Below, in pieces: positions 34,294 to 63,056 of a stretch of 64,000 bases of DNA; within the stretch, counting starts at the first letter, position 1, and the number at the start of each line of letters is the position of its first letter. The position numbers and the translations under genes are program-made. Below the pieces are notes generated by a model, which ran no database searches, was not told the origin of the DNA, and saw nothing but the letters and a program-made list of their open reading frames with translations. The DNA lies in the NCBI RefSeq assembly GCF_023028105.1, contig NZ_CP095494.1, positions 1 to 64,000 of the forward strand. Reading direction: 5' to 3'. Source of the stretch: Halosolutus gelatinilyticus (GTDB taxonomy: Archaea > Halobacteriota > Halobacteria > Halobacteriales > Natrialbaceae).

Positions 34294-34302
34294 GCGATCA
34301 TC

Positions 34303-37300
34303 ATGACACGGAAATCAACCCCGAGCGACGCGAACAGCCGCTGGTCTCGGTTGGCTGGCACGATCAATCTATCCATGGCGTGTAGCGGACAACTCCGAGC
34401 GATCATACTCGCGTTTTTGATGGTCGCCTCACTTCCGGTGATGTCGATCGCGTACACTGGCTTCGGGGACGGTGGGACAGCAGTTGCCGCATCTGGAAAC
34501 AGTTCCGTGACTGACGGGTTCGAGAACTATGATTCGGGCACTACCCCGGGCGGCGATTGGGAGGATACAGGAACTGCTCCTTCTGAAGTCACAATGAATC
34601 AGTCCTATGAAGGTGACAAAAGTCTGCAAGTGGGGACCTCCTCCAACAATGGTAAGGTATTTTACAGGAACCAGTCCGTTCATGCGACTGACATTGACGT
34701 TTCTGTCACTATGTATTCTCATTCTACTTCCGAGACACGATTTGCATTGCACCCGGAAGGAACAGACGATTCCCGGGTCATTGTGTCTATAGTTGGCGGA
34801 GACTTGCAGATCTATGATGGTTCATTCACTGTGATTGACAGTAATGTTAACAACAACGAATGGGTGACGGTCCAGATAAACAATGTTGATCCATCTAACG
34901 ATACCTTTTCGCTCCGCTGGGAGTCGCCAAACTCGTCAGGAGAGGCTCACGATATAGGATCTGATGGGACGATACCTGACGGAAACTTGGACCCGGAATT
35001 GTATTCTGGCGCAGAAGCTCATTTTGATCAGTTTGGATATGGTATTGGATTAGGTGGATTTTCAGAGCCGATCACCGGAACCGTCGTTGATCAACACGGC
35101 GACCCAGTTGATAACGCGACCGTCGAAGCATGGGGGATCGCCGAACCAGCACTCGACGAAAATGACGCCCGATCGCTGAAACGCCAAGCCGAGGATCTCC
35201 GCGACGAACTCGCCGATCCGATCCCCGAGCAGTGGGACGCCGACTACGATCTCGACGCCCACATGGACGCGGACGGAACGTACGCACTCGTTCACAGTGA
35301 GAGCGATTGGGGCGTCTCGAGTTGGTCGACATCGGTCTCCTCGAACGTCGACGACCCACGCCTCCAGATCGACTCGGATCAGACGGTCGTGATCTCGCTG
35401 TGGGATCCCGCCGAAGACGGCGGCTGGTTCGACAATCAGGTCGACAATTCGTTCCCGGGCTCAACCACGGACGGCGAAATCACGATCCGGCAACTCGGCC
35501 CGACGGGAGAGTCGATCGACTCGACCACGTACGAGACCGAGGTGATCGCGACCACCACGGGTGGAAGAATCACCGGCGAAAACGAACACCATGGCGTCCG
35601 CACGCGACTCCCACCGGGCGTCTATCAGGCCGTCCCCGAGGGTCACCCCGAACGTGGATATACGTTCGTTGTTGGCGATCCGGACGAGCTGTGGCAGGCG
35701 TTCGAGTCCGACCTTCGTGACGAAGCGAACCGGCTGACCGGTCGCGCCGAGCGCATCCAGTCGATGCTCCAAGAGGAGACGATCGTCCGCGAAACGGCGC
35801 GTACCGACGAAAACGGCGAGTTCGAGATCGATATTGCGTCGGATGTGGTCACCGCGGACGTCCGCGCAATGAAAGCCGACGGCACGATTCTCGACGGCCT
35901 CGAAGATCCGTCACTCGACGATCTGCGCGAGGCACAAGCGGGCAACTACAACGGATCCTTCTATCTCCCATCGCCAACGCCGAACACTGTCGAACCGCCT
36001 GCGGAGGACGTCCAGGTCACAGTCTACCGGTCGCCGGAGGTTCCACTTGGGGATATGCAGTCGCTTTCGGAGCTGCTAGCCTGGCTTGAGGACCAACGCC
36101 TCAATGAGACGATAGAGGACCTCCAGAGTGAGTATGATCAGCGGTTCGAGGAGATGGAGCGATCGACGCTCGAGCGCATCTACTCCAACCACCGCATGCT
36201 CGTCGAGACGGTCCCCGGCGCCGAAGGTCGCTACCTCGATCGATCGTCGTTCGGCGAGATCCAAGACGCCGAGAGCCTGAGTACGAACGAACTCTCGACT
36301 GAGACGACCCATATGCAGGTCGCACTCGCGAACGTCGATCAGATCGAGCCGCCCGAGCTGCCGGATTCGCCGGACAACTTGATCGATCTTGAGGACGGTC
36401 ATCTCTCCGGCGAGACACCATTACCTCCCGGCGTCGACGAGGATACGATCGCCGTCGAACTCCTTCCGGCGAACGGGCAGGGAGTCGAGACGATCCCCGA
36501 GGAGTACTGGCACGTTGAGTCGGGACTTTTCGGCGACAACACGATCGTCGTCGAAGACTACCCGGTACAGGCGACCGATGCACCGGCCTACACGCTTCGG
36601 GTCCGTGCAGGCAGTGATGAGGGCTATCTCGACGATCGAATCCCGTTCGTGAATCCTGGATTCGACGGCGAAATCCCAGGAATTCGGGCGATCGACCTGA
36701 ATACACTTTCTCCCGGTCCCAACGAGCGCGTCTCGATGACGCTCCGGACGAGTGAAGACACCAGCGTTGATGGGATCGACTCGATTGACGTCTTCGGCCC
36801 CAACGGCGAGGAGCTCAACACGACGATCGACGGCGACACCACACGATTCTCCACCAACGGAAAGGGCAAGCACTTCATTCGGTTGGCGATCACCGACGAG
36901 ACTGGATCGACGTTCGTTCGATCTTTCAGCGTGCGTGCGTTGGAACAGAGTCGGTCAGACCCTCCGACGGTTCGGGCTGAACAAAGCACGACTGGTCCGT
37001 TCGCAATCGCCGGCGAAGGACTCGATGACGCGGAGATCGCCGTCGACGGCGATGAAATCCGGGTCCGGGCGATCGTTCCGGGCGGCGAAATCCCTGGAAG
37101 CATCCACGTCAAGCCGGACGCAGTGATGGACGGCGACACGCACGAGATCGATATCGCTGTGCTCGAGGGGACCGACGAACGGCAGATATCCACGAACGTG
37201 GAGGCGGTGATCCATCTCGACTCGATCGCCGAGGACGCCGACGTGTGGCGTGGGTCGCCGAGCTTGCTTGGCCAGCCGATCAAGTGGGACGGAGGCAGCC

Positions 37301-37557
37301 GCTACGGCGAGGTCATCAAACGCGAGAACGGGAAGGCGATCGTCCGGACGTACACGAACGACGATGGCGCGACGACCATCACGATTGAGGAAGATCCCGA
37401 TACGTGGCGATCGGCGCAGTACAGCATCGCGTCGAGGATCCCGAGATTCGATATCCCGTTCATCGGATCGATCGCGACGCCATCCGCGTTCGGTGGCATG
37501 TCGATCGGGGCGATTGGGATCAGCCTGGTCGTCCACCGACGCCGCACACTTCCCTGA
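34303..37557 (+). CDS. Giant surface protein B: jelly-roll-like head on conserved stalk
   Basis: A 1084-residue paralog of the preceding gene, starting nine bases after it. The leader (MTRKSTPSDANSRWSRLAGT) and hydrophobic segment match. Residues about 55-250 are unrelated to the propeller and look like a concanavalin/LamG-type jelly roll (SVTDGFENYDSGTTPGG, then NNEWVTVQINNVDPSNDTFS). From about 255 (TGTVVDQHGDPVDNATV) it tracks protein A to the C-terminal anchor (VHRRRTLP). The head-coding DNA is again AT-richer. Two different heads on one stalk suggest alternative ligands on host or partner surfaces. Many Asn-x-Ser/Thr sites would allow glycosylation. Confidence 0.7.
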   Translation: MTRKSTPSDANSRWSRLAGTINLSMACSGQLRAIILAFLMVASLPVMSIAYTGFGDGGTAVAASGNSSVTDGFENYDSGTTPGGDWEDTGTAPSEVTMNQSYEGDKSLQVGTSSNNGKVFYRNQSVHATDIDVSVTMYSHSTSETRFALHPEGTDDSRVIVSIVGGDLQIYDGSFTVIDSNVNNNEWVTVQINNVDPSNDTFSLRWESPNSSGEAHDIGSDGTIPDGNLDPELYSGAEAHFDQFGYGIGLGGFSEPITGTVVDQHGDPVDNATVEAWGIAEPALDENDARSLKRQAEDLRDELADPIPEQWDADYDLDAHMDADGTYALVHSESDWGVSSWSTSVSSNVDDPRLQIDSDQTVVISLWDPAEDGGWFDNQVDNSFPGSTTDGEITIRQLGPTGESIDSTTYETEVIATTTGGRITGENEHHGVRTRLPPGVYQAVPEGHPERGYTFVVGDPDELWQAFESDLRDEANRLTGRAERIQSMLQEETIVRETARTDENGEFEIDIASDVVTADVRAMKADGTILDGLEDPSLDDLREAQAGNYNGSFYLPSPTPNTVEPPAEDVQVTVYRSPEVPLGDMQSLSELLAWLEDQRLNETIEDLQSEYDQRFEEMERSTLERIYSNHRMLVETVPGAEGRYLDRSSFGEIQDAESLSTNELSTETTHMQVALANVDQIEPPELPDSPDNLIDLEDGHLSGETPLPPGVDEDTIAVELLPANGQGVETIPEEYWHVESGLFGDNTIVVEDYPVQATDAPAYTLRVRAGSDEGYLDDRIPFVNPGFDGEIPGIRAIDLNTLSPGPNERVSMTLRTSEDTSVDGIDSIDVFGPNGEELNTTIDGDTTRFSTNGKGKHFIRLAITDETGSTFVRSFSVRALEQSRSDPPTVRAEQSTTGPFAIAGEGLDDAEIAVDGDEIRVRAIVPGGEIPGSIHVKPDAVMDGDTHEIDIAVLEGTDERQISTNVEAVIHLDSIAEDADVWRGSPSLLGQPIKWDGGSRYGEVIKRENGKAIVRTYTNDDGATTITIEEDPDTWRSAQYSIASRIPRFDIPFIGSIATPSAFGGMSIGAIGISLVVHRRRTLP

Positions 37558-49498: not shown

Positions 49499-51622
49499 AT
49501 GAGTCTCGATTTACTCGATCGCGATCCGCACGACCCGAACCCAGGTATCAAAACGCGAATCGTCCGTCGAATCCTCGGCGATCCTCGCAAGGCTCCGACC
49601 CGGCTTATCGGCGCCGCGATCTTCGTCCTGATCGGGGTTATCGTCGCCGGCGTGTGGGCAGTGATTCAAACCGAGACCACGACCTCATCATCGTCCTACT
49701 GGTTCGTCCGGCTCGTGGGGAGCATCGTCAACACAATGTGGGTGCTCGTCCCCGTCGCGATCTACCTGTTCTGGCGCTATATCGGGGTGCTTCGGAAGCG
49801 ATACGCCGAGTCGGCCGCCGAGATCACGGGATGGCTTCCGGAGTCGATCGAGCACCTGTCCGACGAAATGCGATCGACCGATCGGACGACGCGTGTCATC
49901 GCCACAACCGATCACTCGTTCGAGGAAATCAGGTCGAACGTCGACGCAGCCCTCCGCGGTGAACCCCACGAAGGCGAAGTTGTCGACTACTACGGACGGT
50001 ACGAATCGAACAACGGTGACGGTCAGCCGGAGGCCCCGGCGTCGGACGATAGCGATCTCGAGTCCCGCCTCGACGAACTCTCGGCTCGCGAGACCGAACT
50101 GATCGAGGAGTACAACCGAAAAACCGAGCGGATCGACGATCTTCTCGATGACGCCCTCGGTGCCGATCTCGACCTCAGTGATCCCTCGGCACTCGACGAT
50201 CGGGTGTCGATGTACGATCTCATGGATGGGGGCGGCCAAGACGCCGTCGACGAAGCTGACCAGCTTCTCGAGGAGTGCGAGGCGATCGAACAGGAACTCG
50301 AATCGGTCCGCGACGAACTGGCCGCCGTCCGCGCCGAGATCGAGTCGGAAATCGAACCCGAGAGCGATCTGGATGTACGGTCCCGAGGCCATGATGATGT
50401 GTACGCTCTCCCGGAACCGGAACCGGAAACGGACGACGACCACAGCACCGATCGAGTCGCATCGGATCGCCAGTCGATCGGGGACGTATGGGCCAACGCG
50501 GACGGGCTACGTGCCAAAGGTCGAGCGGTCGTCGGCCACTGCTATCGGAGGGCGGTAGACGTCGCAATCGCGTCGATCGGCTGGATTGTCGGGCTGATCG
50601 CGGGCGTTCTCGGTACGATTGCGAACCTCGTCTCGGGTAGTCCTGGCGATGAACCGGAAGACGAGGACGAGGTCCCGTGGAAGGTCCGATTTGCGGAGGA
50701 ACTCAAACACTTGGTTCTCGATCTGAACGCGGGACTGCACTCCGATGACCTGCTCTGGAAGTTCGGACTGCCGGCGTTCGTGACGTTCGTTTCGCTGCTG
50801 ATCCTCGCCCGTCTGTGGGTGCATCCGATCCTTTACATCGTCTTCATCGCGATCGCGATCCTCGTCGGCCTGTTCACGTTCTGGGTGTCGAAAAAGCGCC
50901 GATCGAGGCGGCTGCAAATCCACCGACAGCCGGAGGAGTGGAGCTACTGGGACGACGCCGCCGGCCGCGTGAAAACCGTCGAGACGGCGGACGTAGAGTG
51001 CTATATGGGCTGGCTTCCCGGTCGTCGGTACGTGTCCTACGATCGCGAGGAGTTCATCACCGAGTTCTCGCTTCGACTCTATCAGCTCACCCACGACGAA
51101 AAGGTCTCCCCGTCTGTACTGGAGCAGTACGCCCGAAACATCGCTCAGATGAAGCCGAATCTCCGGGGCCACTTGGAGCAGACCGAGAAGCCGGCAATCC
51201 AACAGGAGATCAAAACGGTCGTTGAGGACGCCCCCGAGCAGGTGATCGACAAAGCTGGCCTCGCGATGGAGGTGATCGAGCACCCGCACGAGGATAAGCG
51301 GCTGTCGTCCGATCTTGGCCACGACCCACGACTTGTCGCAGACGAATACCGCTGGCTCGTCGAAGAGGGTCACGTTCTCGAAGAGATCGACGTCGAATTT
51401 GAGGATGCGAGTGGCCGAACAACGACGAAAACGCTCGTCTACCCGGCCAAAAAGAAACGGCTTCCTGATATGGAGGCGCTGCACTCGCAGTTCTCCGATC
51501 GGTTCACCGGATCACACGGCGATCCCTACTACAACCTCCCCGAGTGCAACCCGACCGAAGATCTTCGCGGGTTCGTCCCGTCGCCGCGGGCGGCACAACT
51601 GTTCGAAACTGGGGGTGTATAA
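49499..51622 (+). CDS. Large multi-span membrane coiled-coil protein
   Basis: A 707-residue protein whose ATG abuts the preceding stop. Spans occur near residues 36-58 (LIGAAIFVLIGVIVAGVWAV), 72-95, 355-380 (ASIGWIVGLIAGVLGTIANL) and 425-470 (FVTFVSLLILARLWV and the next segment). Between them is a long acidic coiled coil (about 180-285, including LLEECEAIEQELESVRDELA). The C-terminal cytoplasmic domain (about 480-700) includes WSYWDDAAGRVKTVETADVE and a helical region. It may be the inner-membrane platform of a translocation machine, and it directly precedes the ATPase gene. Confidence 0.55.
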   Translation: MSLDLLDRDPHDPNPGIKTRIVRRILGDPRKAPTRLIGAAIFVLIGVIVAGVWAVIQTETTTSSSSYWFVRLVGSIVNTMWVLVPVAIYLFWRYIGVLRKRYAESAAEITGWLPESIEHLSDEMRSTDRTTRVIATTDHSFEEIRSNVDAALRGEPHEGEVVDYYGRYESNNGDGQPEAPASDDSDLESRLDELSARETELIEEYNRKTERIDDLLDDALGADLDLSDPSALDDRVSMYDLMDGGGQDAVDEADQLLEECEAIEQELESVRDELAAVRAEIESEIEPESDLDVRSRGHDDVYALPEPEPETDDDHSTDRVASDRQSIGDVWANADGLRAKGRAVVGHCYRRAVDVAIASIGWIVGLIAGVLGTIANLVSGSPGDEPEDEDEVPWKVRFAEELKHLVLDLNAGLHSDDLLWKFGLPAFVTFVSLLILARLWVHPILYIVFIAIAILVGLFTFWVSKKRRSRRLQIHRQPEEWSYWDDAAGRVKTVETADVECYMGWLPGRRYVSYDREEFITEFSLRLYQLTHDEKVSPSVLEQYARNIAQMKPNLRGHLEQTEKPAIQQEIKTVVEDAPEQVIDKAGLAMEVIEHPHEDKRLSSDLGHDPRLVADEYRWLVEEGHVLEEIDVEFEDASGRTTTKTLVYPAKKKRLPDMEALHSQFSDRFTGSHGDPYYNLPECNPTEDLRGFVPSPRAAQLFETGGV

Positions 51623-51624
51623 CC

Positions 51625-54078
51625 ATGTCTTCGGAACGAGAGAACCCGGCTCTTGCCCGGTATGACGAGATCCAGGCGAGAGATTCGACCGACGTCGGAA
51701 CGGCACTGAAAAACCTGAAGCGAAAGCGGATTCAGCGACGTCAGCGCCAGTCGCAGGCGGAACACGAGGCGTTCGTCCGGAAACTCGTCACGGAGGCCCG
51801 GGCCGCGATCGCCGGCGAGAGCCACTACCACATCGAGGACCTGCTGCTGACGCTCCACTGGACGATCAAGCAGTCCGAGAACCTGCCGACGGTGCTCGAT
51901 CCGTCCTACGAAGGCCTGGATGCGGAGACGAAAACTGCGTTCCACGACCACGATCACGTTCGGTCACAGGGTGGATCGCCACCAGACCCGGAGCGAGAAC
52001 TCGAGACGCTTGCAGAAATCGCGGAAGAACTCGGAATCATGAACTCGATTATCGACACGACGAGATACGCACCTGTACGATTCGCATCGATCGACGAACC
52101 CGGCGCAAAGACGACCGTCGACGAACCGACACCGGTCGGTCGGCTTCGGATCCCGAGGGACTCGGCGGTCGACCTCGATGATCGCCTCGTCGAGATTCCG
52201 CACCAATCGTGCGATCACATCGGCGCGATCGCGCTCCCGCGTCGCGGGAAGGACTCGACGCTCGTCTCACTCGGGAAGAACCTCCAGTCAGAGCACGGCT
52301 ACTCGTACATCTCGATCATGGACGACGGCCGGATGGAGACGCCGATGATCGCGATTCCGAACGACGAGCAGGTCATCCAGCAGAACCTCGATCGATTCGA
52401 GCAGGAATCCGACGCGATGGCCGCGGACGTGTTCGTGCCGGCGATGGGCGACATTCCCAACCTGCTGCCCTCGAACTTCCGGCTGTTCACGATCGGGATC
52501 GACTGTCTTACGCCGCACCTGATCCTCCGCCTCGCGGGCGTCACGAAGAGTGACGAGACGGTCGAGGCCCGGATCAAGAAGGCACTCGACGAGACGCTGA
52601 CGAACAGCGGGTCGGTGTCCGAGCTCGTCTCCCGACTCCAGGTGTACGCCCGCGAAATGGAGGCGACGATCGAGTGGACCGAGATCGAGGAAAAACGCGC
52701 TGGCGAGACCTCGACGTCGACGTACACGGCGCACTATCAGATGGACGCCGAAAGCGCCCTCGAAACGGCGGCGCAACGTCTCGGTCAACTCGCCGCGGAG
52801 GGACTGATCACGTCGCCGTCGGCCGCGACGAACCTCGATATGGTCGACGTGATCGCCAATCAAGAACGGGCTGCCGTTCTCTGCTGCAACTTCCTCGGTA
52901 GCGGCCTCGAACCGCTGAAATACGTCATCATGGACCTGTGGCTGCGGCTCATCTACAAGGCCCGTGACGAGAACCCCCGGTTGCCTCGCGTTTGTATCGA
53001 GATCCGCGAGTTGAAGAATATCGCTCCGTCGAAGATGGCCGACGTCCGGTACAAGGACGATATCAAGACGCTCCGGCAGACGATATTCTTCCTGACAACG
53101 CAGGGCGGAAGCCGGCGGATCCTTCTCCTCGGATCCACGCAGAAGTGGAACGACGTCTACAAGCCGGTTCGATCGAACATCGCGATCAAGTTCCTGTTGC
53201 AGCTCGGCGAGGACGAGATTGACACGCTCGACAGGACGCACCATTTCTCGTGGGAACAACAGCGCCAACTCTCCGAGTTCGATATCGGCTGGGGAATGAT
53301 CATCTCCGAAGGGAAGCCCGACTACCCGGTCGAACTCCGCGGGGCGCCGTGCGGCCTCGGCCTCGGCGATCGCCACTGGCGCGATCGGTACGGGATCGCG
53401 TGGGGCGCTCGCGTTCGCGAGCACGAGCACGACTCGTGGCGTGGCGACGAGGACGATCCCGAGTGGTGGGTCGACGTCGTCGACTGTGCGGTCTACGAGA
53501 TCGACGCCGACGGGCCACCGGCGATCGGCGATTGGTTCCTGCTCCGCGAAGACCTGGAGGGCGTCGATACGCGGGTCGCTGACGGGGCGCCGGTCGCGGG
53601 CCGGTTCCTCGAGACGCCGGCGGACGATCGGCGGGCGTGGGTCGACGACGCCCTGGAACAGCGCCGCGAGCTCGAGATTCCGAATGATTTGCTCCTACAA
53701 CCGAGCGGCCACCACAACAAGCAGCGAAGCGTCTCACTCGCCGCAGACGACCTCACCGCAACCGTCGAGGATGTCGCGGACGAGTACGGCGTTCCCGAGC
53801 AGATCCGGCCGTGGCTGGAGGATCCGCCGGGCAAACGCGAGAAGCTGATCGAGGCGGTGACCGCTGTCCACGAACACGACGGTCTTCGGACGACTGGCGA
53901 CGTCGCCGAACACCTCTCCTACAGCGCGTCGACGCTGCGAAACTACTGGTCGAAAGACGACGGTCTCGGGCCGTGCTGGGCGCAAAAAGGGAAGGACTAC
54001 GTGACGACGCCTATCGGCAAGCAGGCTGCGACGCTGGATTGGGAATCGATCAACGACGACCTGTCTGAGTACGAGTGA
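51625..54078 (+). CDS. FtsK/HerA/VirB4-type P-loop ATPase with atypical Walker A
   Basis: An 817-residue protein starting at the ATG at 51625. The P-loop region reads IALPRRGKDSTLVSLGKNL (about residues 202-220), where Lys is followed by Asp instead of Ser/Thr. A Walker B-like strand occurs at RVCIEIRELKNIA (about 453-466), and a sensor-like strand at RRILLLGSTQKWNDVYKPVR. The C-terminus holds a winged helix (GDVAEHLSYSASTLRNYWSK, about 755-775). The order matches HerA/FtsK-family DNA pumps and conjugative or viral packaging ATPases, so a role in moving DNA across or into a membrane structure is likely. Its stop comes two bases before the MCM-like start. Confidence 0.7.
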   Translation: MSSERENPALARYDEIQARDSTDVGTALKNLKRKRIQRRQRQSQAEHEAFVRKLVTEARAAIAGESHYHIEDLLLTLHWTIKQSENLPTVLDPSYEGLDAETKTAFHDHDHVRSQGGSPPDPERELETLAEIAEELGIMNSIIDTTRYAPVRFASIDEPGAKTTVDEPTPVGRLRIPRDSAVDLDDRLVEIPHQSCDHIGAIALPRRGKDSTLVSLGKNLQSEHGYSYISIMDDGRMETPMIAIPNDEQVIQQNLDRFEQESDAMAADVFVPAMGDIPNLLPSNFRLFTIGIDCLTPHLILRLAGVTKSDETVEARIKKALDETLTNSGSVSELVSRLQVYAREMEATIEWTEIEEKRAGETSTSTYTAHYQMDAESALETAAQRLGQLAAEGLITSPSAATNLDMVDVIANQERAAVLCCNFLGSGLEPLKYVIMDLWLRLIYKARDENPRLPRVCIEIRELKNIAPSKMADVRYKDDIKTLRQTIFFLTTQGGSRRILLLGSTQKWNDVYKPVRSNIAIKFLLQLGEDEIDTLDRTHHFSWEQQRQLSEFDIGWGMIISEGKPDYPVELRGAPCGLGLGDRHWRDRYGIAWGARVREHEHDSWRGDEDDPEWWVDVVDCAVYEIDADGPPAIGDWFLLREDLEGVDTRVADGAPVAGRFLETPADDRRAWVDDALEQRRELEIPNDLLLQPSGHHNKQRSVSLAADDLTATVEDVADEYGVPEQIRPWLEDPPGKREKLIEAVTAVHEHDGLRTTGDVAEHLSYSASTLRNYWSKDDGLGPCWAQKGKDYVTTPIGKQAATLDWESINDDLSEYE

Positions 54079-54080
54079 CC

Positions 54081-55040
54081 ATGAATCGAGACGAATCCAA
54101 GATCAAAGACGAGTACCACACGCTCGTCCGTGACGTCTTCGAGGGGGTTGTACGTGAGGTCAACAGCCACTACCCCGCGGAGCGATCGGTCCGACTCGAC
54201 TGGGAACGGATCAGAGAGTTCGACAAGACGATCGCGAAGACGTTCCTTCGGAACCCGCAGCGGGCGCGCGGCAGTACCGCGGAAGCGATCGAGTGCTGGA
54301 ACGAGGTCGATATCCCGGACTCGATCGTCCGTGTGCACAACATCCCCGACGAGTACCAGTTCCGCGTCGGGAAGCAGCGAACGATCCATCTCGGTCGGCT
54401 CATCACGATTACCGGCGAGGTCGTTGAAATGGACGGCGTCAAACCGTTCGCGAAGATGGCCGCACTCGAATGCCACCAGTGTGGGACGCTGAACTACGTT
54501 CCCCAATCGTACGGGAAGATGATCGACCCGCACGCGTGTGAGGGTTGTGAGAAAAAATCCGGTCCGTTCCTGTTCCGGCGACAGCAGTCGGAACTGCTCG
54601 ACTACCGCAAGGTGATCCTCCAGCGCGCGGATACAAATCTTGACGACGATCCGCCACAGCTCGCCGTCTATCTCACCGAGGACCTCGTCGATCGGATCGG
54701 ACCTGGAGATCACGTCTCGCTCGTCGGCTACTACGATACCGGCCGCATTCAGAAAAAATCAGTTCTCCAAACGTACCTTGAGACGTGGGATATCGAGTCT
54801 CACGAGGAAGGCGTGCTCGCCGATCGACTCTCGCCGGATGAGCTTGCCGACGCGATCTGCGAGGAAGTCGAAGCGAAACAGGACGAAGACCCGTCGTCGT
54901 TCGGCGCCGATCGCGAGGCAATCATCGAAACACTCGTCGACGAAGGTGTCCGCCGCAAGGAAGTCGAGTCACAACTGGAGGACCTCATCGATCAGAAGGA
55001 AATCAGCGAGATCGGCGGCGGCAAACTGATGGTTACGTAG
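54081..55040 (+). CDS. MCM N-terminal-domain protein without AAA+ motor
   Basis: A 319-residue protein with the layout of the archaeal MCM N-terminal region: a helical domain (FDKTIAKTFLRNPQRARG), an OB fold (RTIHLGRLITITGEVVEM) and the four-Cys zinc finger (ECHQCGTL, then ACEGCEKK, about residues 132-160), then KVILQRADTNLDDDPPQLAV. The AAA+ helicase core is absent; instead there is an acidic helical segment and a C-terminal winged helix (AIIETLVDEGVRRKEVESQL). It should bind single-stranded or melted DNA without unwinding it. It may direct element DNA to the ATPase or interfere with host MCM. It is the last gene of the run. Confidence 0.75.
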   Translation: MNRDESKIKDEYHTLVRDVFEGVVREVNSHYPAERSVRLDWERIREFDKTIAKTFLRNPQRARGSTAEAIECWNEVDIPDSIVRVHNIPDEYQFRVGKQRTIHLGRLITITGEVVEMDGVKPFAKMAALECHQCGTLNYVPQSYGKMIDPHACEGCEKKSGPFLFRRQQSELLDYRKVILQRADTNLDDDPPQLAVYLTEDLVDRIGPGDHVSLVGYYDTGRIQKKSVLQTYLETWDIESHEEGVLADRLSPDELADAICEEVEAKQDEDPSSFGADREAIIETLVDEGVRRKEVESQLEDLIDQKEISEIGGGKLMVT

Positions 55041-55421
55041 CAGCCGATCGTCCGTCCGAGATCCCACCGTCGTCCGTACGCGCGTCCATCCTCCGAGGAC
55101 AACCAGATGTGGCAGAAAAGGCGATCAGCGACCAATCTGAGCGCGTCTGAGGAAACGGTCGTCTGCGTGTCTCCGAGCGCCCGCGGCTACGCGCGTACAA
55201 TGTAGAGTCTCCGGTGGTTGAAAGACGTCCAGCAATTCAGACCGACACCGTGGTGTCCGGCGAAGTGTTCAGACGTGTCTTCCCCCGAGAACTGTGAGGA
55301 AAACGAATATGGAGACAGTATCTGGATACAGATTACCGCTGCCCGTTCTTGTGCTGCTGGACGCGAGCAACGTTTTCTGGATACGATCGATCGCTGTCGA
55401 ACAGCGGATCGTCGGGAAAGA
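55041..55421. other. Boundary between the operon and the split-integrase region
   Basis: About 380 bases after the MCM-like gene. Small frames on both strands here have poor composition. No attachment repeat or terminator stands out apart from the 41-bp repeat that begins at 55422. Confidence 0.35.
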
Positions 55422-55462
55422 CGCGATCGCGGCAGATCGCGTCAATATCACTGCCGGGTTCG
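55422..55462 (-). repeat. Left 41-bp direct repeat in integrase coding sequence
   Basis: The 41 bases starting CGCGATCGCGGCAGATCGCG recur at 62114-62154 with one mismatch. On the minus strand both copies encode PGSDIDAICRDR in the same frame. They lie exactly where the two integrase halves would join, so they are candidate attL and attR sites. Confidence 0.75.
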
Positions 55463-55645
55463 GGCCGATCGCCCGTCACCTTCTCGACGGCGTTGTACCA
55501 CGACGTCGTGTGCCCCGTCGGGAACACGGGCCACTCGTCGATCGGCGGATCCTGTACGCGCTGCAAGCGCGCGAGCGAGTCGTGAGCGGCGTCGGTCAAC
55601 CCGACGGGTTCGCGGTCGCGGGACTTGCCGAAGACGTCGTCGACG
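55463..55645 (-). pseudogene. Tyrosine recombinase, N-terminal-side fragment
   Basis: On the minus strand the frame reads VFGKSRDREPVGLTDAAHD, then RVQDPPIDEWPVFPTGHTTS, and enters the 41-bp repeat (GSDIDAICRDR). These are typical of the region before the C-terminal catalytic box of haloarchaeal integrases. The upstream part, including the first catalytic Arg, is missing because a transposase remnant begins at about 55640. The matching C-terminal half lies at 61851-62113. Joined at the repeat, the two would form one continuous reading frame. Confidence 0.7.
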
Positions 55646-56006
55646 GACTACCGGCTTCGCCTGTGTAACTTCGTGCTGTCAACTCTGATCTACAATCTGT
55701 GGCAGCTGACGGACTACTCCGGGGACTCGTCTAACAGTACTGGTACCGATGGCGTTTGAGACGGCGATCCAACAGTTGAAACGCGACTTCATTGGCCGAT
55801 GTGATTCTGATAGTCCTCGAGTCCGTGCCTTCTACTTCGGAACAGGGCAGTTGCTGTTCAACTTCTGGTTGCATTCAGCTATGAACTCTCCTTCCATTTC
55901 GATCACACCAGGGTTCGAGTGCTTGGACCCAAACTTCTCGACGAGGTTCGCGAAGCCGACTTCGAAGCGGCAAAAGCAAGGAAGTTACCTGGAATATAGC
56001 GCCTAA
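55630..56006 (+). pseudogene. Tandem transposase C-terminal remnants
   Basis: The plus strand reads KTSSTDYRLRLCNFVLSTL and IYNLWQLTDYSG, a C-terminal signature of DDE transposases of haloarchaeal IS elements, ending at a stop near 55748. Shifted in frame, 55749-56006 reads AIQQLKRDFIGRCDSDSPRV and FYFGTGQLLFNFWLHSA, a similar but different transposase tail. Both lack the catalytic domains. They look like remains of two IS insertions, the first of which removed the N-terminus of the integrase. Confidence 0.5.
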
Positions 56007-56052
56007 ATTCAAAATTACTGCTATAGAGTAAAGACCCTAACTTTGAGAGTGA

Positions 56053-56601
56053 TCATTCAGAGTATTCAATTCTATTAGTCACAACACGAGTATCGTCATC
56101 TTCAGTAGGGTCGAAATGATTTTCAACTGCTTCTACTATATTTGGAAGGGTCGATTCCAATCCTAAAGTAACGGAATACGGCTTATGATCCAAATCATCA
56201 GTACATGAGCCGGTGAACAATCCAGTCTTATTCCCCTCCTCTACCCAACCAACACTAATATGTAATGTATTTTTTTCATTCTCAAAATTAAGCTTCTCAA
56301 CTGTTATAGCATTACATGTACTTGAACCATAAGTTAGAACACCTTCGACATATACTTCGTTTTCTTCACTGTCAAAATTTATGATAGGTTTCTCAGATGG
56401 GGGTGTGTTTTCGTCAATTTCACGGGTGGGGATCTCACCCCAGTCAAACTCCGCTGAGTCTATTTCTTCCGGTAGGTTGTCTAGTGGATCTGGATCTGAT
56501 CGCAAAAATAACCACCAAGAACCAAATCCGGAAATGGGGACAACGACTCCTATTTTCATCAATCTGCGTTTTGTGATTTTTAGATTTTTATTGGTACTCA
56601 T
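56053..56601 (-). CDS. Membrane-anchored or exported hypothetical protein
   Basis: A 182-residue protein from the ATG at 56601. The N-terminus (ITKRRLMKIGVVVPISGFGS) is a Tat-like or signal-anchor sequence. The exported part is acidic, with a core such as VYVEGVLTYGSSTCNAITVE and GWVEEGNKTGLFTGSCTDD, whose two Cys could form a disulfide. It is strongly AT-rich relative to the operon on the left. It is transcribed with the protease gene upstream (57802). Function unknown. Confidence 0.55.
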   Translation of the reverse strand: MSTNKNLKITKRRLMKIGVVVPISGFGSWWLFLRSDPDPLDNLPEEIDSAEFDWGEIPTREIDENTPPSEKPIINFDSEENEVYVEGVLTYGSSTCNAITVEKLNFENEKNTLHISVGWVEEGNKTGLFTGSCTDDLDHKPYSVTLGLESTLPNIVEAVENHFDPTEDDDTRVVTNRIEYSE

Positions 56602-56686
56602 GTTACTGATTATGTGGGGTTCTGACTGTTTGTTGCTAATTGTCCCGACCGTATTAAAGATTCACCAACTCTACTTTCAGTTGACC

Positions 56687-57802
56687 TTATGACCCTAACT
56701 GGGCATTCACAGCATCTAAAGCTTCATCACCAGCAACACCGGCGTCCCATTCATCTATGATATAACCGCCTACTTCGATATAAACCCGTCCGGAATGGAA
56801 TGCAACTAGTTTCCCATCATCATCAACCCAGGGTCCTCCGGAATCGCCACCCTGTGCATTTCTAGAGTCCATATTGACTTGATGTTCAGCACGTTCGCCA
56901 CCTGCAGCCGCTCCTATTACCCTATTATCTTCAGTACAGCTGTTTTTCCCAGAGAGGGTACAGTCAATCGTGTCCCGGATTGTATTTTCAAGTATTCCAT
57001 CCCAGGTCCAGACACCAGTGACATCTGGCGCCGCACCGACAACACCCCCATGATCAGGAGAGGTTCCAGAATCTGAATTAAATTCGTATGAAGTAATATC
57101 TTCACTTTGGTCTCGTGAAGAGAAGGATCCAACAGGGTTTGAATCCACTTGATACATGCTTGAATTGCCCTCCATAACGTGATCTGCAGTGATTAGAACT
57201 GTATCGTCAGTATCAGTCCCATCTCCGTAGCAAACCAGACCGAGAGTTCCAGAAGTAGTAGAAGGAATAGTACTGATTCCAAGTCCTCCCTCCAAAGTGG
57301 TTCGATCATCACCGCGATACCCACAAGCGTCACCCTCTGATTTTATATTTTCTTGATTGATTTCAACTGGAAGCCGCTCGGGTTCATTATTTTTAACCGC
57401 TTGTTTTGCTTGTTTGTTTTTCTCTTTCACTTCCCTTGATCGGATTTCATTTTCCGGTTCTGGGACAGTAATCTCAATTTTAAGATCCGTTCTACTATCG
57501 GATTGCTGATGAAGTGTTATGCTTCTAATTTCATCTTTGTCTCTCACTTTTTCAGAAAAGTCCTTGTATGCCTGTAGTAGTTCGTACCTTTCTTCTTCAA
57601 TTATTTTGACTTTATCTGGACGTCCTTGTTTATCTTTGGTAAGGGTTAGTGGAACACCTTCAGGCTCTTCCCCATAAGCAGTTCCTAAGGCAGATTGAAG
57701 TCCGGCAATGCTAACTGTACCGGCCCCTAATAACCTGAGGAACCGACGACGGGTACTGTGATTTAGCTGAACAGTCTCTCCAATTTCAAGTTGTCTCGCC
57801 AT
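56687..57802 (-). CDS. Trypsin-like (S1-type) serine protease, Tat-exported
   Basis: A 371-residue protein. A Tat signal (STRRRFLRLLGAGTVSIAGL) is followed by a charged helical pro-region (about residues 50-150). The protease domain then shows the catalytic His in VLITADHVMEG and the Ser in GGDSGGPWVDDDGKLVAFHS. The middle Asp is not certain; DHGGVVGAAPD is one candidate. Cys pairs (DTIDCTLSGKNSC) may form a disulfide. The enzyme would act outside the cell. AT-rich composition sets it apart from neighbours in the GC-rich block and suggests recent acquisition. Confidence 0.75.
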   Translation of the reverse strand: MARQLEIGETVQLNHSTRRRFLRLLGAGTVSIAGLQSALGTAYGEEPEGVPLTLTKDKQGRPDKVKIIEEERYELLQAYKDFSEKVRDKDEIRSITLHQQSDSRTDLKIEITVPEPENEIRSREVKEKNKQAKQAVKNNEPERLPVEINQENIKSEGDACGYRGDDRTTLEGGLGISTIPSTTSGTLGLVCYGDGTDTDDTVLITADHVMEGNSSMYQVDSNPVGSFSSRDQSEDITSYEFNSDSGTSPDHGGVVGAAPDVTGVWTWDGILENTIRDTIDCTLSGKNSCTEDNRVIGAAAGGERAEHQVNMDSRNAQGGDSGGPWVDDDGKLVAFHSGRVYIEVGGYIIDEWDAGVAGDEALDAVNAQLGS

Positions 57803-58065
57803 TGGTTAACACCAACTAAATTCAGAACCGTTAAAATATTAGTATTAACTGATGGATATTTCATCAGTAGATGAATATCATCTCAGACAATGGTTAGATT
57901 TGACTATTTTTGCTCTATAGGGAATGCAGTACGGCAATACAATAACGCAAAGCAGAGTCTTGCGTTTGCTTTGTAGTCAAGTAAGACGTTCCAAGATGAG
58001 ATCACACTTATTACAGAGAAGAGTCTGGAGAGTATTCTCAAAGAGTAGTTCTGAATTTGGGAGCG
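57803..58065. other. AT-rich intergenic region left of the MITE-like element
   Basis: About 260 bases, strongly AT-rich near 57830-57920. It probably holds the promoter of the protease gene. A short plus-strand frame at 57924-58121 runs into the inverted-repeat element and has no recognisable content. Confidence 0.4.
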
Positions 58066-58296
58066 GGTACTGTCTAGTTAAGCGCTTCTGGCGTATTCCG
58101 GCGTTTCAGCAGGTGTCGTGACGCCCTGAGTGATTAGCGCAATACTCACACATTCTGTGACGTGTGTTGAAGTAGTCGAATGTTCGCTGCTCGTCGATCG
58201 AGTCCCACTTGTGTCAGCGACTAGGTGCAGTTTCGCAGGGCTCGTCACGCCTTTATCGCCACTCAGTCTTGCGGTTTCCCTTATCTAGACAGTGCC
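58066..58296. mobile_element. MITE-like element with 17-bp terminal inverted repeats
   Basis: GGTACTGTCTAGTTAAG at 58066-58082 is matched in inverted orientation by CTTATCTAGACAGTGCC at 58280-58296 (15 of 17 pairs). The 231-bp interior has no intact gene. Read on the minus strand, parts look like the tail of a transposase-like frame (VTSPAKLHLVADTSGTRS), so this may be an internally deleted IS. No clear target-site duplication is visible. Confidence 0.6.
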
Positions 58297-58492
58297 TTTT
58301 TGTTGGTTAAAATCTCTTGGTCAATCTATCGCGCTTTGTATCGGCTGTATATTACTCGAAACTTCTTTATAGACAATTTCGTACGATATTAAACTGTACA
58401 AATCACTAAACGATAGTGTAATGCTCTGTCAATCAAGGAAATAAAAGCAGAAGTCTTATATTTCCCTCGGTATTTTGCATTTCAGTCGGAAT
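58297..58492. other. Intergenic region right of the MITE-like element
   Basis: About 196 AT-rich bases with no gene between the MITE-like element and the convergent end of the regulator gene. A transcription terminator may lie here, but no strong hairpin is visible. Confidence 0.4.
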
Positions 58493-59275
58493 TCAGGAAA
58501 GTGATAGCGGTGTACTGTCGGTTTCATGTTTTGAATACCAGTCTATTCCCCACGAAACTGCGGCTCTGTTTTTAGAATCAATGACGCCGCGAACAACACC
58601 AATATCGTCGTGAATAACGATAAGAACATGTTCGACAGGTTCTGTGATCACGACAACTCCCATCGGGATTTCACCAGAGTACGAATAAGCTTCGAAATTC
58701 CCAGTGTTAAGGAGGGTTTTGAATTCGTCACTGAGTTTTGTTTGCACATGTTCAGTCGCCTCCCTCCCGAAGACAAACTCGGCATCCAGTCGGTTCTCTG
58801 TCACCTGGGTCAAATACGTATCTACCATAGCCGAGAAAACAGTCGGCACCACACCACTAATCTTGGCCGCCTCAGAGACTTGTTCTTCAAGATATTCGTA
58901 TACAAGATCTGGTCTTGTCTCCCCGATTACAAGTGTCGTTGCATCACAAGCGACGGACGGGTCAAGAACCGTTCCAATCTCCTGTCTTGTTTCGAGTAAT
59001 CGCTCTGATTCTGCAAACGTCTGGACGATTTCGTCGGTTCGCTCATACTGTGTATAGACGATTTCGCCGAACGTCGTCGTCGCATACATACCATTCTGTC
59101 TTTTGACTAGATTGTGATCTTCGAGTTGTTTGAGCCCACGGTAAACCGTCGACTGTGAAGCGTCTACCTCATTGACCAGTTGGTTTTGATAAGCCGGGTC
59201 CTCGATGAGCCGTTTGAATATAGATGATCGTTTGTGGAGGGCCATGTAGGCGGCGTGTGATTTTTCCGCGTCCAT
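58493..59275 (-). CDS. Winged-helix regulator with FilR1-like sensor domain
   Basis: A 260-residue protein from the ATG at 59275. The N-terminal winged helix reads IFKRLIEDPAYQNQLVNEVD and then ASQSTVYRGLKQLEDHNLVK. The C-terminal domain (about 95-250) contains ISGVVPTVFSAMVDTYLTQV and FEAYSYSGEIPMGVVVITEP, followed by GVVRGVIDSKN, the pattern of the FilR1/methanogen-regulator middle domain common in haloarchaeal regulators. It probably senses a small ligand and controls transcription. Upstream, TTATATTAATGGG close to the start (59297-59309) is a possible promoter. Confidence 0.75.
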   Translation of the reverse strand: MDAEKSHAAYMALHKRSSIFKRLIEDPAYQNQLVNEVDASQSTVYRGLKQLEDHNLVKRQNGMYATTTFGEIVYTQYERTDEIVQTFAESERLLETRQEIGTVLDPSVACDATTLVIGETRPDLVYEYLEEQVSEAAKISGVVPTVFSAMVDTYLTQVTENRLDAEFVFGREATEHVQTKLSDEFKTLLNTGNFEAYSYSGEIPMGVVVITEPVEHVLIVIHDDIGVVRGVIDSKNRAAVSWGIDWYSKHETDSTPLSLS

Positions 59276-59318
59276 GATTCTATGTATCACATAAAGCAAC
59301 TTATATTAATGGGAATTG

Positions 59319-59760
59319 CTATGGGTTCCAACTGGCATAGTAGTATTCGAGATATATAGAATATGACACGTGGCTGTATGCGACCAGGGCCGATACGATC
59401 AATAGGTCGTCTGCTTTCTCGCGATCGGACATGCCGCTATTGCCCGCGGCTTCGGATAAAAAGTCTCGGCTATTCAGAAGGTACCTCTCCGCAGTGTAGG
59501 TCTTACAGCCGTCGTAGTCAGCCTTCCGATCGGCACACCGGTCACAGACGCGTTCGCTCCGCTCGACCCGCTTGAGAGCAACCGTCAGGAACGGATCATC
59601 AGGACCGACCGCGCCACAGACCTGACAGTAGGTCCACTCGGGATAGCCGGCCACATCCAGCGTTGGCAGCTCGTGATGCTCGAGATTGCGCTCCGAGCGC
59701 TCGAGGACACGCGCTCGTGCCGCCTGGAACGCGCGGTAGGCGAAGCCCGCGATCGCCTGT
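59319..59760 (-). CDS. Zinc-finger hypothetical protein, 5' end apparently lost
   Basis: The well-supported part on the minus strand begins near IAGFAYRAFQAARARVLERS and has two Cys pairs, TYCQVCGAVGPDDPF and ERVCDRCADRKADY, consistent with a zinc ribbon. The C-terminus is hydrophobic-aromatic (YSHVSYSIYLEYYYASW). No start codon is found where homologous coding character begins. Further upstream the bases belong to a plus-strand SHOCT/HhH gene remnant. I read this as a gene truncated at its 5' end by recombination near 59760. The frame stays open much further, but as antisense to the remnant. Confidence 0.45.
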
Positions 59761-60043
59761 CGTCGGACCCGGACCCGATCGATGACCTCCGCGAGCGGTA
59801 CGCCGCCGGAGAAATCGACGCTACTGAGTTCGAACGCGAACTCGCGTTCTACGTCGACGATCGGAATGAGCAGATTCGAATCGTCGTCGAGATGTCCCCG
59901 GGATCGGCGAGGCGACATCGAAGGCGATCGCCTACGAGTACCAGTCGCTTGAGGACCTCCGGGGGAGCGATCGGGAGCGCCTGGAGTCTGTGCCGGGCGT
60001 CGGCGAGCAGCGGGCGGCAGATGTGCTCGATCGGGTTCGGTAA
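59755..60043 (+). pseudogene. SHOCT plus helix-hairpin-helix gene remnant, frameshifted
   Basis: The plus strand reads DPIDDLRERYAAGEIDATEF, a SHOCT domain, then ELAFYVDDRNEQIRIVVE. Near 59892 one base is missing; in the next frame the protein continues DVPGIGEATSKAIAYEYQ and ERLESVPGVGEQRAADVLDR to a TAA at 60041-60043. The last part is a double helix-hairpin-helix. The N-terminus is cut at the junction with the minus-strand zinc-finger gene. It is probably non-functional. Confidence 0.6.
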
Positions 60044-60144
60044 CTATCCCTGACAGCCTTCCAAATTCCCGATTCCGGGTTGGTTGCAGACTGTATTCCA
60101 TCAAGGTTCGCAGTACCAACTTTGATACTGAACCAGCATATTGA

Positions 60145-60813
60145 ATGATGGGAATTCTTTTTAGTTATGAAAGTGAATATGAATGTATGATAGAATTGAA
60201 TGAGTGGAGATTCAAAATTCGAACATTTTTCACGAAACTGTTCATTTGGGTTTCACAACGTACATCCATCGAGGAAATCAACGAGGTTTCACTCCTTAAC
60301 GAGAGAACCACCATCTACTCGTTTCGGAGCGACTCGGCGATTTTTGCTCAAGTGACTCCGATCGGTACTATCATTTGGAACAAATCTCGTATGGAAGGTC
60401 TTTCAACCCGGTCAAAGCAACTTATACTTCGTCATGAGTGTAGTCATCGTGACCGAAATCCAATATATAAGGGTATTCTATATGGGATGGCTGTATCGTT
60501 CGCTGCGGGTCTCCTCTTATTGCTGATCTCGTTTGCACTTTTAGCCCTTGGAGCATCACCGTCCGAACTATTAACTCCAGTTCTCATTGCTGTAGGGATG
60601 ATAGGTTCGTTCATCATTTTAGTCCGTATTGAGGAAACTCTCGCTGACTACCATGCGATTCGAGATTTGGGCGAAGAGACCTTTATCGATGCATACAACG
60701 AGATATCAAGTGAAAGTGATAATTCGCTTCATGCTCAGGGTCTACGTAAAGTGCTATACACTGATCCCTCCGATACTGTCCGTATCTATCGGTTTTTCCA
60801 GCGTATCTCTTAG
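60145..60813 (+). CDS. M48-like membrane metalloprotease
   Basis: A 222-residue protein. The zinc motif HECSH (about residue 96) lies in KQLILRHECSHRDRNPIYKG, and the third ligand is likely the Glu of EETLADYHAIRDLGEETFID. Two hydrophobic segments between them (LYGMAVSFAAGLLLLLISFA and TPVLIAVGMIGSFIILVRI) are typical of HtpX/M48 membrane proteases. It is shorter than most M48 proteins. An alternative start is the ATG at 60187. Fragments of helix-hairpin-helix genes lie on both sides, so it may have been inserted. AT-rich composition supports that. Confidence 0.65.
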   Translation: MMGILFSYESEYECMIELNEWRFKIRTFFTKLFIWVSQRTSIEEINEVSLLNERTTIYSFRSDSAIFAQVTPIGTIIWNKSRMEGLSTRSKQLILRHECSHRDRNPIYKGILYGMAVSFAAGLLLLLISFALLALGASPSELLTPVLIAVGMIGSFIILVRIEETLADYHAIRDLGEETFIDAYNEISSESDNSLHAQGLRKVLYTDPSDTVRIYRFFQRIS

Positions 60814-60861
60814 TCGTTATACAGCGTGAGATGATCCTTCAAGGGCCTTCGGCAGAGCGTT

Positions 60862-60951
60862 CGGAGGCGCCTAGAGTCCATGCCGGGTGTCGGTGAGCAG
60901 CGAGCGCAGGACGTGCTCGATCGGGTCCGTCCCACCGGAAACGCGGAGTGA
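60862..60951 (+). pseudogene. Second helix-hairpin-helix gene fragment
   Basis: The frame RRRLESMPGVGEQRAQDVLD then RVRPTGNAE to a TGA at 60949-60951 closely repeats the end of the remnant at 59755-60043. It has no start or upstream domains. It may be the tail of a paralog or a duplicated segment. Confidence 0.55.
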
Positions 60952-61018
60952 TCGGTTCGTAACCAAGATCAAGCGCGTACGAGAGGTATTTAAATCTGAG
61001 AACCATCAGTAATACTGT

Positions 61019-61267
61019 ATGACTGACTTCCAAGACCATTTCGAAGACATGGACGAAGAAATCGGAGAGTTCACTGACGACCTCACTGAACGGCTCGAAG
61101 AGGCATTCGGCTCCGAGGTCGAGATTAGTCAGGTTCAGAACGACCCGCAGAACGATCGATATACGATAGAAATCGATCCTGTTGGAGTAGAGGACATGCT
61201 CTCCGAGGAACTAGATGTGAGGGTTATGACGATCGGTGGAATCACTATTCGCATGGAAGATAGGTAG
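61019..61267 (+). CDS. Small acidic hypothetical protein
   Basis: An 82-residue protein (MTDFQDHFEDMDEEIGEFTD, then TIEIDPVGVEDMLSEELDVR). The TATA-like GTATTTAAAT at about 60986-60995 lies about 25 bases before the ATG, so the transcript is probably leaderless and the start well placed. Highly acidic, soluble, no Cys. Function unknown. Confidence 0.6.
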   Translation: MTDFQDHFEDMDEEIGEFTDDLTERLEEAFGSEVEISQVQNDPQNDRYTIEIDPVGVEDMLSEELDVRVMTIGGITIRMEDR

Positions 61268-61328
61268 GCCAGATTGATCACATCCAAACATATTTTTTGA
61301 TTGCCTTTCTTTCACTATCCGTAAAATC

Positions 61329-61847
61329 ATGCCAGCTAACGCACCCTATACAGTTACCAAGGGAGACGATGTTTTAGAGATTGAACTAATATCTGAAGAC
61401 CTTGAATCCCGACGTAACGTCTATTTCACGGATCAATCACCTGTGTTTGAAATACGAGCTGAAAATATCAGTAATAGGCCTGTGGAGGGGAGTACAACTC
61501 TGAGGTTCTCTTTTGAAGAGTCAGAGAACAAAATAGAAAATGGTGTCGCAACTAAAATTGAACTTGATCTCGAACCGGGAGAGAGCAAAACGGTTACTCA
61601 TCAAATCCGTATGCTTCCCTACCAGGGAACAGCAGCTGTGACAGTCCGCCGGTGCCGGGTCAGAGACCAAGAAGACAGGATTGAATTGCAAAGGATATCG
61701 AATCGGTATAAAAGGATATACACGTTCATGGTTTATGACCGAGACTATTATAAAGTAAATTATCTTTGGCCGAGACGCGCGCAATATATCGCAGCCTTCC
61801 TCTCTGTCCTTATCGTTTTAGTTGGTATCCTGCAACTCACAGGATAA
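61329..61847 (+). CDS. Ig-like domain protein with C-terminal membrane span
   Basis: A 172-residue protein. A beta-sandwich segment (PVFEIRAENISNRPVEGSTT, then IELDLEPGESKTVTHQIRML) resembles the CARDB/Ig-like domains of archaeal surface proteins. A span near the C-terminus (YIAAFLSVLIVLVGILQL) anchors it. There is no N-terminal signal, so the beta domain may face the cytoplasm. AT-rich. It ends three bases before the convergent integrase fragment. Confidence 0.55.
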   Translation: MPANAPYTVTKGDDVLEIELISEDLESRRNVYFTDQSPVFEIRAENISNRPVEGSTTLRFSFEESENKIENGVATKIELDLEPGESKTVTHQIRMLPYQGTAAVTVRRCRVRDQEDRIELQRISNRYKRIYTFMVYDRDYYKVNYLWPRRAQYIAAFLSVLIVLVGILQLTG

Positions 61848-61850
61848 CGA

Positions 61851-62113
61851 TCATTTCCGAACTTCGTCGATCGACTTCGCTATGTCCTCAGCCTGGATAT
61901 CGGAGTACGCGGCGTGCGTGGTCTCGATCGACTTGTGACGCAGTGCCGACTGTGCGAGTTCCGAGTGACCTTTTTCGTACAACTCCGCCCCGAGCGCCCG
62001 CCGGGCGCCATGGGGTTTCAGATACCCGCCGTCGACGTCGATCCCAGCCTCCTCGGTCAGTTGTTTCAGGATCTGTCGGCCAGCCTCTTTCGTGATCAAC
62101 GGCGGCGCAACCT
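61851..62113 (-). pseudogene. Tyrosine recombinase, C-terminal catalytic half
   Basis: From the 41-bp repeat the minus strand continues VAPPLITKEAGRQILKQLTE, DVDGGYLKPHGARRALGAEL and ALRHKSIETTHAAYSDIQAE to a stop at 61851. It has the His-x-x-Arg box (HGARR), the second His (LRHKS) and the nucleophilic Tyr (AAYSDI). The first catalytic Arg region is absent here and belongs to the other half. It would be inactive alone. Confidence 0.75.
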
Positions 62114-62154
62114 CGCGATCGCGGCAGATCGCGTCGATATCACTGCCGGGTTCG
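62114..62154 (-). repeat. Right 41-bp direct repeat in integrase coding sequence
   Basis: Matches 55422-55462 at 40 of 41 bases and encodes the same PGSDIDAICRDR frame on the minus strand. Recombination between the two copies would release a circle of about 6.69 kb and join the integrase halves in frame. Confidence 0.75.
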
Positions 62155-62267
62155 TGTCGATCGCTGAACGGCGCTGCTCATGAAACCGAGAATGATCTCT
62201 ATCTGACGACTTGTAGCATATAACTAGATTAGTTTTATATAGAATAAGGATTAATACTCAGAATGTA

Positions 62268-63056
62268 ATGGCGGATCAGAATAAATTCAGTCGACGTAAT
62301 GTTTTGAGAACAACCGCGGGCCTTGGCGCAGCTGGTTCATTCTCTACAGTTGGTTTTGCAGCCAACTCTGGGAACAGTTTCCGAGACCGCATTAGAGAAG
62401 CAAATAGAATGTTGGATGATGGAGTTTCTGATGAAGTTCGTGAAAACTATCTCAATGATCACGGAATCGTCGGAGAAGAGTCGGCCTATACGTATACAAT
62501 CGAAAGAGATGATGAGGGAGTCGGTCAGCAGAACTATGATAAAGACGAGTTAGATATTGTCTGTCGACTATGGCATGATTGTCCAGATGGGCTTTACTAC
62601 GCAGAGGTCGTTTGGGAATATGCGTGGGATGGCATAGAGGAAGGTAAGAAGCCCCATGATAGAGTTGGAATCGGCTATGAGAGGCAATGGTGGGATTATT
62701 CGTCGTATGACGTCAGCGAAACGACAGAGACAAGTTATCTCGTTGAACCGGAGCCTGACGAGTTCGGTGACGGCGCTGTGTTTAAAATGAATGATTATGA
62801 GGCCAACAAGAATAGGCAATATTGGTGTGGTCTCTATCTTGATCCCGTTGGTGATTATTCCTCTGATGAACGTCGTGTTCAGGCAGGATATGCCCATACT
62901 TGGGGTCAAACAGTCATTGAAAATGTTTCGGTTGGCTTCCCAGCGGGAATATCAATAACTGCGTCAAATGAGGATAAATATTGGGAGACAAAAACCGAAA
63001 TAGGCGGCTCGTATCTCTTACGAGTGGCCCAAAAGGATTCAGTATATTGTTCCTAG
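62268..63056 (+). CDS. Tat-exported hypothetical protein
   Basis: A 262-residue protein with a clear Tat signal (FSRRNVLRTTAGLGAAGSFS, cleaved near GFAA). The mature part is rich in Trp and Tyr (YYAEVVWEYAWDGIEEGK, then YERQWWDYSSYDVSE), with Cys at VCRLWHDCPDG and YWCGLY. A TATA box TTTTATATA near 62233-62241 lies about 30 bases from the ATG. AT-rich. Function unknown; it lies just outside the right repeat. Confidence 0.6.
   Translation: MADQNKFSRRNVLRTTAGLGAAGSFSTVGFAANSGNSFRDRIREANRMLDDGVSDEVRENYLNDHGIVGEESAYTYTIERDDEGVGQQNYDKDELDIVCRLWHDCPDGLYYAEVVWEYAWDGIEEGKKPHDRVGIGYERQWWDYSSYDVSETTETSYLVEPEPDEFGDGAVFKMNDYEANKNRQYWCGLYLDPVGDYSSDERRVQAGYAHTWGQTVIENVSVGFPAGISITASNEDKYWETKTEIGGSYLLRVAQKDSVYCS

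Follow-up and report, generated by a model that had tools for sequence, protein, structure and literature searches.

How did the gene of a tyrosine recombinase (integrase, int) come to lie in two pieces at opposite ends of a 6.69 kb segment of a haloarchaeal plasmid? The window, that is, the whole 64,000-nucleotide stretch of DNA analysed here, is the first 64 kb of the 88,308-bp contig C4 of a 4-contig haloarchaeal genome. A sequence-only reading had described the segment as a fusellovirus-like element, integrated through a site inside its own integrase gene and disabled by a transposase remnant. The described structure was confirmed, and the virus-like reading is corrected below in favour of recombination between plasmids.

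The integrase pieces and their bounding repeat

On the minus strand, an integrase piece (IntN) is terminated by the left copy of a direct repeat, R (...DRPEPGSDIDAICRDR), and a further piece (IntC) is opened by the right copy (...DRHEPGSDIDAICRDREVAPPLITKEAG...). Both pieces and the identity of 40/41 over the 41-bp core of R (55422–55462 and 62114–62154, one mismatch) were as first read; the repeat extends to 51 bp, with 48/51 identical positions and a spacing of 6692 bp. The host's own genome was searched for R and no copy beyond these two was found. Intact relatives (L018–L028 and G104, ≤84% identical to the C-piece) carry GSDIDAICREKRVAPPSITKEAG or a close variant, uninterrupted through R, and the integrases of Natrinema ejinorense (84% to the C-piece), Natronococcus pandeyae, Natrialba species and G104 read unbroken across its position. 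Since these relatives are continuous there, the aligned sequences place IntN and IntC in one gene type, the two joining across R in frame, although not provably in one physical copy. An origin of the pieces in different genes, which would have undone the first description, was thus not found as far as gene type is concerned.

About 210 N-terminal residues are missing from the split integrase. The transposase remnant said to have taken their place is an IS remnant that abuts IntN, with a weaker match extending to about 56014. Profile matches of IntC and of an intact relative were to PF00589 only, and the catalytic motif HGARR (HxxR) is present in IntC and all relatives, KxxR being absent. Among 125 genomes of the family, the host's included, none gave a PF16795 match above the cut-off, the controls being positive.

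The left copy of R contains GACGCGATC-TGCCGC-GATCGCGTC, which corresponds to 9-bp inverted arms with a 6-bp spacer, as found in 0.13% of random contig windows. In the right copy the arms around the 6-bp spacer are 7 bp long (2.7% of random contig windows), and none of the three mismatches between the copies falls within the inverted-arm core. Relatives have not kept the arms, and a self-repeat search of the R-equivalent region in the relatives' loci detected nothing att-like. By synonymous conservation, R ranks among the lowest 4% of windows across the int gene. The copy on the resident side, next to the right flank (Y), still consists of int codons, two of the three differences being silent.

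Among L018–L029, synonymous codon identity peaks at the 5' end of int, in the first ~20 codons (0.62–0.70 compared to a mean of 0.55), and upstream of the int start a translated motif is conserved across subfamilies. This 5' end with its upstream stretch is possibly regulatory, or possibly the real attachment site.

Table 1. Coordinates of the features at the split integrase and in the neighbouring plasmid backbone.
Feature	Position	Strand	Remarks
HerA/VirB4-like backbone gene	51544..54078	+	Named by resemblance, no Pfam match; 77–78% in sister plasmids
MCM-like (MCM_OB) backbone gene	54075..55040	+	PF17207; 68–70% in sister plasmids
Topoisomerase-like tail (29 aa)	55333..55421	-	In-frame fusion after R; 82% to a 530-aa G102 protein
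Left copy of R	55422..55472	-	Ends IntN; junction with topoisomerase-like tail; 48/51
IntN	55422..55638	-	Integrase residues about 211–283 of a 371-aa relative, through R; tblastn 75% to L018/G104 integrases
IS transposase remnant	55626..56014		Cuts IntN; 87–89% DNA identity over 55626–55716 to annotated transposases, about 70% beyond
Low-GC cargo	56053..59299	-	Hypothetical protein, Tat-type trypsin-like protein, FilR1/HVO_A0261-like regulator
znr, zinc-ribbon-like gene fragment	59319..59678	-	Native upstream neighbour of int; 40–47% to sites 0.7–1.2 kb upstream of int in L104, L105, L081
SHOCT/helix-hairpin-helix (HHH) gene	59733..60042	+	Frameshifted, start lost; native downstream neighbour of int; 57–63% to L018, L086, L104, L106, L165
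Second copy of HHH gene 3' end	60842..60929	+	80% identical
hyp61329	61329..61847	+	Native convergent neighbour of int; 83% to L087; 90% remnant beside intact int of pHTUR05
IntC	61851..62164	-	C-terminal ~105 residues with HxxR...Y; 84% to L018; PF00589 E 2e-8
Right copy of R	62114..62164	-	Starts IntC; junction with unrelated flank Y; 7-bp inverted arms

Host plasmid and permuted module

No overlap was found between the ends of C4, and a 182-codon frame spans their end-to-end join. The HerA-like, MCM-like and topoisomerase-like backbone of C4 is common to several circular Natrialbaceae plasmids (Halomontanus rarus, 58.9 kb; Natronorubrum daqingense, 180.8 kb; Haloterrigena turkmenica pHTUR05, 71 kb; Halopiger xanaduensis pHALXA03, 68.8 kb). 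The order of this plasmid family, HerA-like, MCM-like, topoisomerase-like, HHH, hyp, int, recurs in C4 with only the tail of the topoisomerase-like gene and a permuted int. Past the left copy of R the minus-strand frame reads VFPDDPLFDSDRSYPENVARVQQHKNGQR*, the C-terminal tail of a 530-aa topoisomerase-like protein (full protein, phrog_6247), and homology to this protein begins immediately after R. The gene is convergent with the MCM gene in C4, as in the closest relatives; its remainder was not found in C4:54000–73000. For flank Y, no DNA relative was detected in plasmids or family genomes, only distant protein matches.

The 6.69 kb between the repeats includes plasmid-backbone genes of the hosting family. 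Between IntN and znr lies cargo with a GC content of 0.44 and no counterpart in the relatives' module. The similarity of znr to its counterparts is weak (E 1e-5 to 1e-9), and it has a paralogue upstream of a second C4 integrase. The znr and HHH genes stand back to back at 59.3–60.04 kb, each truncated at their shared junction, and hyp61329 and IntC converge at a distance of 3 bp. The pHTUR05 module runs HHH - hyp - int (C to N) - znr, and only partial order was seen in other relatives; the window has int(N) - znr - HHH - hyp - int(C). Compared by gene order, the inter-repeat segment thus reads as a circular permutation of the native module, opened inside int at R and closed between znr and HHH. 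Integrases of the same type (C-piece 82–84%), with HHH and hyp61329 downstream and znr upstream, occur on pHTUR05, N. daqingense unnamed3, a 72-kb contig of N. ejinorense and contig C6 of G104. Unlike here, all of these are whole genes with a single R.

The 3' end of the HHH gene (88 bp, 80%) is duplicated at 59952–60039 and 60842–60929, flanking a 222-aa membrane-protein ORF, so another cargo gene is bounded by a duplicated gene end.

Origin of the split

We put at about 0.5 the probability that the locus is the decayed scar of a single crossover at R, inside int, between sister-plasmid DNA and this plasmid. Such a crossover with a circle or sister plasmid is favoured because the permuted order is opened at R and a copy of R stands at either end. 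The in-frame halves around the repeat, the cut ends of znr and HHH at their junction, the topoisomerase-like tail in its native place by the MCM gene, the int codons of R on the Y side and the position of the R mismatches were also counted for it. Against it, the resident int remnant would have to be only about 51 bp long, the znr similarity is weak, and the searches described below gave neither an empty site nor a circle.

For the order of events, we infer that sister-plasmid DNA bringing in HHH - hyp - int - znr underwent one crossover at R with this plasmid, where an R-like, int-derived stretch already adjoined the truncated topoisomerase-like gene. Since int codons are still readable on the partner side of R, this stretch was most likely a short int remnant of the resident plasmid. 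The crossover would have split int into IntN on the left and IntC on the right, with R at both ends, and the incoming backbone between znr and HHH would have been lost either before, if a small circle was involved, or after, by a later deletion in a whole-plasmid cointegrate. An IS would later have removed the integrase N-terminus, the second intact integrase staying on the plasmid. Host recombination over short homology is the most likely catalyst, the integrase itself being the alternative. Among the checks proposed were a search for an intact version and one for an empty site; intact int genes are present in relatives, and neither empty site nor circle was seen on comparing 62114–62270 with 125 genomes and a 28-bp core pattern with 392 genomes. 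The plasmid before the insertion cannot be reconstructed, because flank Y is without known relatives.

A serious rival, if a distinctly less probable one, is that IntN and IntC come from two int genes that were truncated independently, from a duplicated module or from two plasmids, which overlap by 51 bp by chance. In these plasmids int pseudogenes abound, truncated remnants with unrelated flanks among them, which makes separate remnants plausible. The partial HHH copies (59733–60042, 60842–60929 and 64159–64221) and the two integrase types show that more than one module decayed here, and the R copies are 6% divergent. An overlap of 51 bp between random truncations in a 1.1-kb gene would, however, be a coincidence of about 5% by our own estimate, and the permuted order would additionally require a tandem duplication from which both outer halves disappeared. 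Decayed cointegrates and IS-mediated remnants occur in haloarchaeal megaplasmids. The locus is like these in its truncated genes, IS remnants and partial duplications, but its ordered permutation with R at both ends exceeds random debris.

Self-splitting (suicidal) integration, in which the integrase brought about recombination between a core site in its own gene and a genuine attB on the plasmid, SSV-like yet outside the SSV superfamily, appears improbable. It would make this a PF00589/HxxR plasmid integrase with a working core inside its own catalytic-domain coding sequence, which splits itself at plasmid fusion, and would mean that suicidal integration originated independently in haloarchaea. 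The split-gene geometry and the rarity of the inverted arms are consistent with it, and the breakpoints of N-truncated int remnants in other plasmids cluster near the same region, in an exploratory comparison biased by alignments that start at the edge of a conserved block. The low synonymous conservation of R and the loss of its arms in relatives argue otherwise, as do the int codons on its resident side and the relatives, which carry int whole on circular plasmids. Furthermore, no R-like site outside int genes was found in 392 genomes with the 28-bp core pattern (≤3 mismatches), a core over which the intact G104 gene is identical.

Suicidal integrases form one superfamily with PF16795, the SSV type having R...KxxR...Y, and self-splitting integration has been traced to a single event in one integrase superfamily (PMC8371274). 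The locus is like those of the SSV1, pTN3 and pT26-2 suicidal integrases (PMC8371274) in having gene halves at opposite ends of the segment and a bounding repeat inside the gene. Differing from all three, it has PF00589/HxxR instead of PF16795/KxxR, no tRNA target, a cut about 90 residues before the C-terminus, inside the catalytic domain, and a segment made of plasmid backbone and cargo. The likeness to SSV-type elements is one of geometry only. Of the proposed integration through a site inside the integrase, the geometry of a circle opened in int therefore stands, with added support from the permuted order; its assignment to the SSV type is not supported, PF16795 and KxxR being absent and no tRNA, nor an attB outside int genes in the genomes searched, having been found.

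It is accordingly very improbable that a viral element, fusellovirus-like or otherwise, integrated here by means of an SSV-type integrase and was then disabled by an IS; only the split-gene geometry speaks for it. SSV-type elements target a chromosomal attB, usually at the 3' end of a tRNA gene. Here no tRNA or Rfam RNA gene was matched as a target, the left flank being the tail of the plasmid topoisomerase-like gene, and the search for an attB outside int genes (125 genomes by DNA; 392 by the 28-bp core, ≤3 mismatches) returned int genes only. A PHROG search of the segment proteins gave regulator-like HTH matches only and no fusellovirus structural, core or hallmark genes. In IMG/VR, integrase relatives were absent by protein, with four exact-pattern matches. 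With plasmid-backbone genes in the segment as well, the earlier claim of a fusellovirus-like element is not supported.

If the integrase did make the crossover inside its own gene, self-splitting integration would have arisen twice, and the intact relatives in cultured strains open this to testing. Otherwise, the locus is a well-resolved example of haloarchaeal plasmids acquiring, and then decaying, modules of sister plasmids. A literature search on the pHTUR05/pHALXA03 integrases and on haloarchaeal cointegrates found nothing useful.

Further integrase remnants and repeated genes

C-terminal int remnants of about 105–120 residues in other Natrialbaceae (L033, L041, L162 and L176) start near the first residues of IntC, each beside a different foreign sequence; this shared start may mark a breakpoint hot spot or arise from the edges of the alignments. 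The flanks of the C-fragments in L033, L041 and L176 were considered as a common target gene and rejected, as differing repeated or conserved sequences adjoin them and none is shared. Natrinema zhouii was likewise rejected as a second split int, its N-fragment lying on another replicon and lacking a repeat common to its C-fragment.

Just beyond the window, C4:64982–66136 (L015:10982–12136) encodes the second, intact tyrosine recombinase, of 384 aa and about 37% identical to the split integrase. A separate znr-like gene lies upstream of it, and an HHH remnant (64159–64221) on its downstream side. Another replicon of the strain carries a 38-codon C-terminal remnant of the same integrase type as the split one (G000:C2:211098–211211, 79%).

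Within the window, a cluster of ORFs at 23433–26607 contains internally repeated, mutually similar segments. At 30694–37557, two adjacent very large ORFs (1199 and 1084 aa) share 69% identity over 830 residues and represent a tandem gene duplication.
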